Below are positions 6,276 to 7,835 of a stretch of 64,000 bases of DNA, in pieces. Each line of letters opens with the position of its first letter. The first letter of the stretch is position 1. Where the stretch lies: assembly GCA_030827135.1 (NCBI GenBank), contig JAURFE010000003.1, positions 200,923 to 264,922 of the forward strand. The letters are read 5' to 3'. The translations under genes and the position numbers were made by a program. Source of the stretch: Vicinamibacterales bacterium. Lineage in GTDB: Bacteria; Acidobacteriota; Vicinamibacteria; Vicinamibacterales; SCN-69-37. The notes under the pieces are model-generated. The model worked only from the letters and a program-made list of their open reading frames with translations, searched no databases and was not told the DNA's origin.

Positions 6276-6770
6276 GTGCTGGCGCTCTACCTCACCATCT
6301 GGCTCGCACTGATTGCCCTTCTCCTTGGCGAGCTCGGCCGACGCCGCAATCGACAAACGAGTGTCACGACGCGCTGGGCGATCGTGTGTTCGGGTAGCGG
6401 CGTGATCCTCGGCGCCGCGCACGCGTTGCTCGCTCTTGGTGTGGTGTACGGATGGGATCACGCACGCGCCGTCACCGTGACCGCAGAGCGCGCGGCCACG
6501 CTTTACGGTGTCGCGTGGCCCGGCAGCCTGTATGTGAATTACGTGTTCCTCGCGTGGTGGCTTGCCGACACCGGCTGGTGGTGGCTCTCGCCCCGGACGT
6601 TCCTGCGCCGGCCCTGGGTCATCGAGTGGACCTGGCGTCTCACGGCGTTCACGATGGTGCTCAATGGTGCGGTGATCTTCGCGAGCACGGCCGGCCGAGT
6701 GGCTGGGGTGCCCCTCGTCGTCGCGCTGTTGGTCGTCTGGTGGTCGACGCCGGACTCGAGGGTGTCCTGA
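6276..6770 (+). CDS. hypothetical integral membrane protein, 164 aa
   Basis: This 164-residue protein is almost entirely hydrophobic. About five membrane segments can be placed near residues 1-20, 35-58, 75-98, 115-135 and 137-157. A short basic loop (GRRRNRQTSVTTR) after the first segment suggests a cytoplasmic side. Several Trp residues cluster at the membrane boundary (AWWLADTGWWWLS). I do not recognise a family. The gene is divergent from the HEAT/cyclophilin gene (62 nt apart) and starts with GTG. Coding character is supported by its length and by membrane-protein composition that is not mirrored on the other strand. Confidence 0.7.
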   Translation: MLALYLTIWLALIALLLGELGRRRNRQTSVTTRWAIVCSGSGVILGAAHALLALGVVYGWDHARAVTVTAERAATLYGVAWPGSLYVNYVFLAWWLADTGWWWLSPRTFLRRPWVIEWTWRLTAFTMVLNGAVIFASTAGRVAGVPLVVALLVVWWSTPDSRVS

Positions 6771-6794
6771 CGTCACGTCAAGGCTGCGCATATC

Positions 6795-7217: not shown

Positions 7218-7225
7218 GGAAAAAA

Positions 7226-7264
7226 GACGAAAGGCCACCGTTCCCCAGTGGGGAGCGATGGCCT
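7226..7264 (-). terminator. intrinsic terminator reading on the minus strand
   Basis: Plus positions 7232-7246 and 7250-7264 form a 15-bp stem around the loop AGT. On the minus strand the pairing includes a U-G wobble and one C-A mismatch, and it is followed by TTCGTCTTTTTT. The T-run exists only on the minus strand, so it ends transcription coming from the 7.3-7.8 kb side. Confidence 0.75.
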
Positions 7265-7284
7265 CTCGCGACGTCTTCAGGCTC

Positions 7285-7362
7285 TCACCCGTGCGTCGGT
7301 ATGGTCGCTAGGCGACGGCCACCAGAAGGCGGCAGGAGCATGGGTGGGAACAACGACGTCAT
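7285..7362 (-). CDS. candidate 25-aa micro-ORF, overlapping the stop of the upstream micro-ORF
   Basis: ATG 7362 overlaps the preceding TGA as ATGA, so translation could be coupled. The peptide is MTSLFPPMLLPPSGGRRLAT followed by IPTHG, with two PP pairs and an RR pair that could slow ribosomes. No similarity is recognised. It is supported only by position and start/stop overlap. Confidence 0.3.
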   Translation of the reverse strand: MTSLFPPMLLPPSGGRRLATIPTHG

Positions 7363-7400
7363 GCGTTGTTCGGCGGAGCACCTTCAGCAGAAGAATTCAT
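7359..7400 (-). CDS. candidate 13-aa leader peptide
   Basis: ATG 7400 lies 8 nt after a perfect AGGAGG (plus CCTCCT 7409-7414). The encoded peptide is MNSSAEGAPPNNA. The strong ribosome binding site is notable in a window where many genes lack one. It lies directly 3' of the base-paired region described for the structured RNA. Confidence 0.4.
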   Translation of the reverse strand: MNSSAEGAPPNNA

Positions 7401-7493
7401 TCTGCCCACCTCCTGTTCCGAGGCGACCCAGCAACCTCATGCGTCAGTGTCAGAACACTGGGTCTAGCCCCATCCTGCGCCTCGTTCGCGGCC

Positions 7494-7835
7494 ATGTCAA
7501 GACCATTGGCGCGCTCCAAACCAGCGCGCCCTACGGACCTGGCAGAGTCCATCCCTCCAAGCGCGCGTCGCCTGCTCACGGAACTCGGGATGGACCATGC
7601 GGTGGACGCTGCGGCATTCCAGCCATGGCTTGACAACACGAGGTGGTGGGCCGGCGAACCGGCGCGTGTGGAGCGATTCGCGGATGATGCCGCCGGGGGC
7701 AGGTTGAACGCGACCGCTTCGACGCCGTACGCCGTGGCCAACGCGTCCGGCTTCCTCGCGCGGCTGCTCGAAGGGATGCCGGACCGTGGGTGCACGGCGG
7801 TGACCGACGCGCTACTGCGTCCTCGTAAACCGTAG
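7494..7835 (+). CDS. doubtful hypothetical protein, 113 aa
   Basis: The frame is open from ATG 7494 to TAG 7835. The second half (from about 7560) has third-position GC bias and a protein-like composition (WLDNTRWWAGEPARVERFAD, PYAVANASGFLARLLEGMPD). The first codons, however, run through a palindromic repeat (7508-7530), so the true start may be ATG 7590. No ribosome binding site is seen at either ATG. The last 24 nt overlap the 3' end of the convergent serine hydrolase gene. No family is recognised; it could be a gene remnant. Confidence 0.35.
   Translation: MSRPLARSKPARPTDLAESIPPSARRLLTELGMDHAVDAAAFQPWLDNTRWWAGEPARVERFADDAAGGRLNATASTPYAVANASGFLARLLEGMPDRGCTAVTDALLRPRKP
7508..7530. repeat. 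short palindromic element, GGCGCGCT type
   Basis: GGCGCGCT (7508-7515), spacer CCAAACC, then AGCGCGCC (7523-7530), followed by CTACGG. It is an intact family member with the standard 8-7-8 geometry. It lies inside the doubtful ORF at 7494. Confidence 0.8.

Follow-up and report, generated by a model that had tools for sequence, protein, structure and literature searches.

Translation-sensing leaders (attenuators) combine a Shine-Dalgarno sequence, a short ORF, helices that can be opened by translation and a terminator. Dual-function sRNAs are represented by VcdRP of Vibrio cholerae, a small stand-alone transcript carrying a short ORF and an RNA with its own role, whose peptide VcdP has a demonstrated partner (PMC8672173). 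A survey of ORFs within sRNAs of 14 bacteria has described ORFs of 10-50 residues, part of them under selection (PMC5521070). Few sRNAs have been annotated in Acidobacteria, with four in one published table (PMC9029176), and Acido-1 (RF01686) and Acido-Lenti-1 (RF01687) are candidate non-cis-regulatory structured RNAs reported from this group (PMC2864571).

The element described here occupies positions 7500-7220 of the minus strand in a 64,000-nucleotide window (the whole stretch of DNA analysed) and has the order of parts of a complete predicted small transcription unit, running from a promoter through the hairpin P1, an AGGAGG sequence, a hairpin around the ATG, a micro-ORF and the domain P4 to a terminator. 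The predicted transcript of approximately 245 nt would start near 7464 and end near 7220, and the borders given in the earlier note (7227-7484) are slightly off from these positions and from a promoter that reaches 7500. The features named there are all present, namely the AGGAGG, a 13-codon ORF with an ATGA overlap to a 25-codon ORF, and a strong terminator. The absence of a served downstream gene also stands, as the downstream neighbour, a plus-strand glyoxalase-family gene (PF00903; 6795-7217), is convergent with the element; on the other side lies a minus-strand gene for a beta-lactamase-family serine hydrolase (PF00144; 7812-9251). The reading preferred here, with a probability of about 0.6, is a stand-alone sRNA gene of about 245 nt with its own promoter and terminator, most likely of dual function (RNA and micropeptide). 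Just upstream of the RNA, at 7508-7534, is a REP-like palindrome (GTAGGGCGCGCTNNNNNNGAGCGCGCC) that recurs at 16 further places (17 matches at up to three mismatches, versus 0.03 expected); 55 further genome matches are to this palindrome, not to the RNA, and often form close pairs. A long imperfect hairpin lies just 3' of the serine hydrolase gene (7726-7803) and is the source of two chance miRNA matches in Rfam.

The -35 box TTGACA (7495-7500, minus strand) has counterparts at the same place in four relatives (TTGACT, TTGACT, TTGTAT and TTGACA). The -10 box CAGGAT (7472-7477, minus strand), which follows after a spacer of 17 nt and corresponds to TAGCGT, TAGCTT, TAGTCT (spacer 16) and TACCTT in the relatives, shows the greatest departure from the boxes of the other copies, and a generic scan of the sequence did not report it. 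The window's own copy and those of genomes G003, G005 and G011 share the arrangement TTGAC(A/T), 17 nt, NANNNT and then 7 nt to the first base of P1, while that of G008 reads TTGTAT-16-TAGTCT with 8 nt to P1. Since the boxes lie at a fixed distance from P1 in five genomes, the transcript is expected to start at P1. G004 no longer has a promoter, and its P1 has lost the 5' arm.

P1 (GACCCA/TGGGTC; 7425-7464, minus strand, as are all parts that follow) is predicted to begin at the first base of the transcript, and one of its pairs (62-109) is C-G, U-G or U-A across six genomes, which is among the clearest compensatory cases. P2 (7409-7423) pairs CCTC with GAGG over part of the Shine-Dalgarno sequence; it is identical in four of the six genomes, contains G-U pairs in G008 and has one broken pair in G011. 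The Shine-Dalgarno sequence AGGAGG (7409-7414) lies 8 nt upstream of the ATG, with GGAGG present in all six genomes at spacings of 8, 9, 8, 10, 8 and 8 nt. P3 (GCAGA/TCTGC; 7387-7405) holds the start codon and is fully paired in the window's copy, G004 and G005, paired with one G-U in G008, and short of one pair in G003; two aligned pairs are gone in G011, where a shifted pairing appears possible by eye. The 3' domain P4 (7270-7360), which is represented in the models R1 and R2 and in the covariation counts, is closed by GACGTC (7360-7355) with GACGTC (7275-7270) and contains two small hairpins, CCGCC-TTCT-GGTGG (7319-7332) and GTCGC-CTA-GCGAC (7304-7316), each with 100% of cells paired in 7/7 copies. 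The intrinsic terminator (7220-7266) consists of a stem at 7266-7228, within which a generic scan matched six nested pairs, and a T6 run at 7225-7220; one stem pair occurs as three types (A-U, C-G and G-C) in the seven-copy alignment of the 3' half, and one pair has been lost in G004. Judged from sequence only, the terminator is kept in six genomes and the promoter spacing in five.

Conservation in close relatives, named in the earlier note as a test, was found in 6 of the 14 genomes of the family, with seven copies matched by the 3'-half model R2 at E <= 1.5e-19; the other five rows of this search comprised four readings of these loci on the opposite strand and one match in G010 at E 0.046. 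By genus, the element is present in four of seven genomes of its own genus, two of three of a second genus and none of the four from the rest of the family. Searches of 162 genomes of the order and 193 of the class with the covariance model R1, under strict filters by which weak matches are lost, returned the same six genomes (6/193), and this model also found a further, shorter copy in G011. Among 60 relatives searched at the DNA level, with the genome of the window included, seven gave matches, one of which (26 nt, in G023) was dropped. Four family genomes that are 93-100% complete (G001, G007, G010 and G012) are without the element, which is therefore dispensable, and its absence from G002 (85% complete, with the hydrolase gene at a contig edge) and G013 (82%) is weak evidence because these assemblies are incomplete. 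The hairpin-pair pattern occurred in 26 stretches of the GTDB collection and one of the viral contigs, of which R1 kept 5/27 at E <= 1e-6, all of them already-known copies; the members matched in the GTDB collection are listed as Acidobacteria MAGs. Three other pattern stretches were rejected as members on inspection, appearing to be coding or unrelated DNA, and the weak R1 matches L022-L025, among those at E 0.003-0.03, were judged to be chance. No match was found in 72,556 plasmid and 50,697 phage records, and a mobile element was also rejected for lack of multi-copy spread (one copy per genome and two in G011).

Folding of the minus strand at 7222-7484 gave -123.5 kcal/mol (z -4.0), better than 200/200 dinucleotide shuffles, and the plus strand likewise outperformed 200/200 shuffles (z -3.6). 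Both strands fold well, so the strand is not settled by folding alone, and the assignment of strand and function follows from the conservation among the family genomes. One pair of mutually exclusive helices of the kind described earlier, the local hairpin GAACAACG/CGTTGTTC in competition with long-range pairing of the two GACGTC copies, is present in the fold predicted for the window's own copy; the folds of G003, G005 and G008 do not contain it. Within the six-sequence alignment, 92.5% of 335 cells were paired, against 89.5% in shuffles and 39-51% with slid partners, and seven pairs carried two-sided changes against 3.3 in shuffles, with 3/500 shuffles reaching seven. For the 3' half in seven copies, 90.6% of 286 cells were paired; six pairs showed two-sided changes, a number reached by 43/500 shuffles, and 10 cells did so, which was reached by 0/500. 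An alignment of the seven copies fitted to the model had 94.4% of 231 cells paired. In the covariation counts, a kind of check proposed in the earlier note, compensatory changes were seen in P1, in the terminator and within P4, but covariation is thin because only seven sequences contribute. A 26-nt match within an apparent coding gene (L015) was left out of all alignments, G011 was omitted from the R1 alignment because its 57-nt insertion misaligns, the G011 ORF hairpin is misplaced in alignment A6, and A2 aligns the 5' portion of G004 poorly.

The 13-codon micro-ORF (MNSSAEGAPPNNA; 7359-7400) is a shortened version of the 18-codon ORF (MNxSAEGAPP...) found in G003, G005 and G008 as MNASADGTPPKNEGRRCS, MDPSAGGAPPKNARRPGL and MNVSAEGAPPNHKGRSSS, respectively. 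The ORF of G011 has 37 codons, the extra 19 being in frame, and the stop falls at the same structural point in these four relatives. The window's copy reaches a premature stop at codon 14 (TGA) and no longer has the stop used by the relatives. Both changes recur in G004, where ACG also replaces the ATG that begins the ORF in the other five copies. A frame test, performed without G004, placed the sense frame best of six, with a mean BLOSUM score of differing codons of 1.43 against 0.9 to -0.56 for the others; by column shuffles, p was 0.019 for BLOSUM and 0.11 for the synonymous fraction. An A/T-P-P triplet, of a kind that is slow to translate, is conserved in the micro-ORF. The second ORF (25 codons; 7285-7362) begins with ATG only in the window's copy and in G004, the nearest relative, and the suggestion of a dual-peptide gene is not supported, as only the first ORF is conserved.

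Comparison of the window with G004 suggests which part of the element has been kept. The two copies of the element are 90.3% identical, compared with 82.9% for the adjoining stretch, which includes the hydrolase gene and a gamma-glutamyltransferase-like gene, and 77.9% for 6282-6787; no alignment was obtained for 7450-7730. The DNA from 7731 onward aligns with G004, and a PIN-domain-like ORF (by eye) takes the place of the window's glyoxalase-family gene there (L010 888-1442). In G004 the losses extend from the promoter and the start codon to a pair of the terminator stem, and this copy may be decaying. The second G011 copy (L029 2725-2866), which lies between other genes at a distance of about 5.5 kb from the full one, has lost the ORF and kept the small hairpins; its P4 is predicted to be closed by GGCAAUGU/ACGUUGCC, replacing GACGUC/GACGUC, with a folding z of only -1.5. 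The ORF has thus been lost in two copies while the 3' domain was kept. Retention of the RNA where the ORF decayed, seen in the comparison of the window with G004 and again in the second G011 copy, favours a role for the RNA with an accessory, dispensable peptide, the RNA probably being the more durable part. In addition, the shortening of the peptide part in the window's own copy makes the RNA part the more likely one to be in use here.

These losses weigh on the proposal that the locus is purely a small mRNA, with the 18-residue peptide MNxSAEGAPPxNxGRRxS as its sole product and the structured 3' half as a mere stabiliser of the message. Such a reading would account for the Shine-Dalgarno sequence in 6/6 and ATG in 5/6 copies, the superiority of the sense frame, the constant place of the stop and the in-frame insertion of 19 codons in G011, but it is distinctly unlikely when the RNA outconserves the neighbouring genes despite a stop at codon 14 in the window and an ACG start and further stop in G004, and when the second G011 copy keeps its 3' domain without the ORF. 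The opposite proposal, of a purely non-coding sRNA in which the Shine-Dalgarno-like GGAGG and the conserved linker serve as contact sites of the RNA, the reading frame being incidental, is also unlikely, although it deserves some weight, given the loss of the ORF in two copies, the p value of the synonymous fraction, and a linker (CTGAAGGTGCTCCGCCGAA) that is identical or one base off in 5/6 copies. It does not readily explain a spacing of 8-10 nt between Shine-Dalgarno sequence and ATG maintained despite indels, the BLOSUM result, or a two-base Ser-to-Ser change in the G011 ORF; moreover, a search for linker targets at three mismatches on both strands gave no recurrent partner and no excess over a reversed-pattern control. 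Under the dual-function reading, the 5' half is laid out for translation, with a Shine-Dalgarno sequence, a start codon within a hairpin and a micro-ORF, and the 3' half forms a closed two-hairpin domain. The RNA would act in trans through this domain and the exposed linker, and the micro-ORF would either supply a short peptide or allow ribosomes to control closure of the 3' domain. Ribosomes could govern P4 closure since the final ORF codons double as the 5' strand of the closing helix; from this geometry, a ribosome that terminates at codon 14 or 18 would sit on that strand. A trans-acting RNA gated by its own translation, in which a ribosome reading the micro-ORF or pausing on it, as at the conserved A/T-P-P triplet, covers the closing strand and P4 closes only when translation is weak, is considered very unlikely. 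If true, attenuator logic would be switching a free small RNA and not a downstream gene.

The genomic sites of the full copies bear on the remaining proposals. Four different sites are occupied: beside the serine hydrolase gene in the window and G004, beside a thioredoxin-like gene in G003, with a membrane-protein-like ORF on one side and a TonB receptor gene on the other in G005, and adjoining a DUF2461 gene in G008 and G011 (in G011 named by visual resemblance of its protein to that of G008). Downstream of the element are convergent genes in the window, G005, G008 and G011, and unrelated same-strand ORFs in G003 and G004. Given four sites with differing neighbours, the element is not a leader, and it is not a 3' UTR of the hydrolase gene either. 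The earlier suggestion of a regulated 3' UTR was abandoned, since among the relatives the element follows the hydrolase gene only in G004, the G003 ortholog has no element downstream (that of G003 being elsewhere), and a promoter lies between. The attenuator-like description holds for the appearance, with a Shine-Dalgarno sequence, short ORF, helices and terminator, but not for a cis-regulatory leader, which was rejected on the convergent neighbour in the window and the lack of a common downstream gene in six genomes. The same leader-like parts could be what remains of a cis-acting leader after its regulated gene moved elsewhere; this is extremely improbable, as promoter and terminator are kept without any following gene in common. 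The alternative of a stand-alone regulatory RNA, also raised earlier, gains support from the putative promoter and terminator and from the several unrelated sites.

With respect to known RNAs, no Rfam 15 family matched the window at its gathering score, and a permissive search around the element, in which E values up to 5 were allowed, gave three matches, the best at E 0.23, which were taken as chance; the Rfam search proposed earlier thus places the element in no listed family. 6S RNA was rejected, the genome's own 6S being elsewhere (C11:827337-827520; 87 bits). No match to Hfq (PF17209) was found in this genome, which is listed as 100% complete, while 5/14 control genomes have such matches, and an Hfq-type sRNA is therefore unlikely. 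A type I toxin was also rejected, as the peptides (MNASADGTPPKNEGRRCS and alike) are polar by eye and not hydrophobic membrane peptides. A search of openly accessible journal papers found none that names this RNA.

The best reading is a new candidate RNA family, lineage-specific and of the dual-function sRNA kind. A compact gene for an RNA and a micropeptide, with states from intact to ORF-less, would offer a direct test of which part selection keeps. Compared with the attenuator class, the element is without a regulated downstream gene and no antiterminator was found. Acido-1 and Acido-Lenti-1 are not among its three permissive Rfam matches. The survey of sRNA ORFs finds membrane peptides and candidate type I toxins to be enriched (PMC5521070), whereas the candidate peptide here is polar. 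The nearest counterparts are dual-function sRNAs such as VcdRP (PMC8672173), which the element resembles in general layout, as a small predicted stand-alone transcript with a short ORF and an RNA likely to have its own role; VcdP has 29 residues, compared with 13-18 for the candidate peptide (37 in G011).
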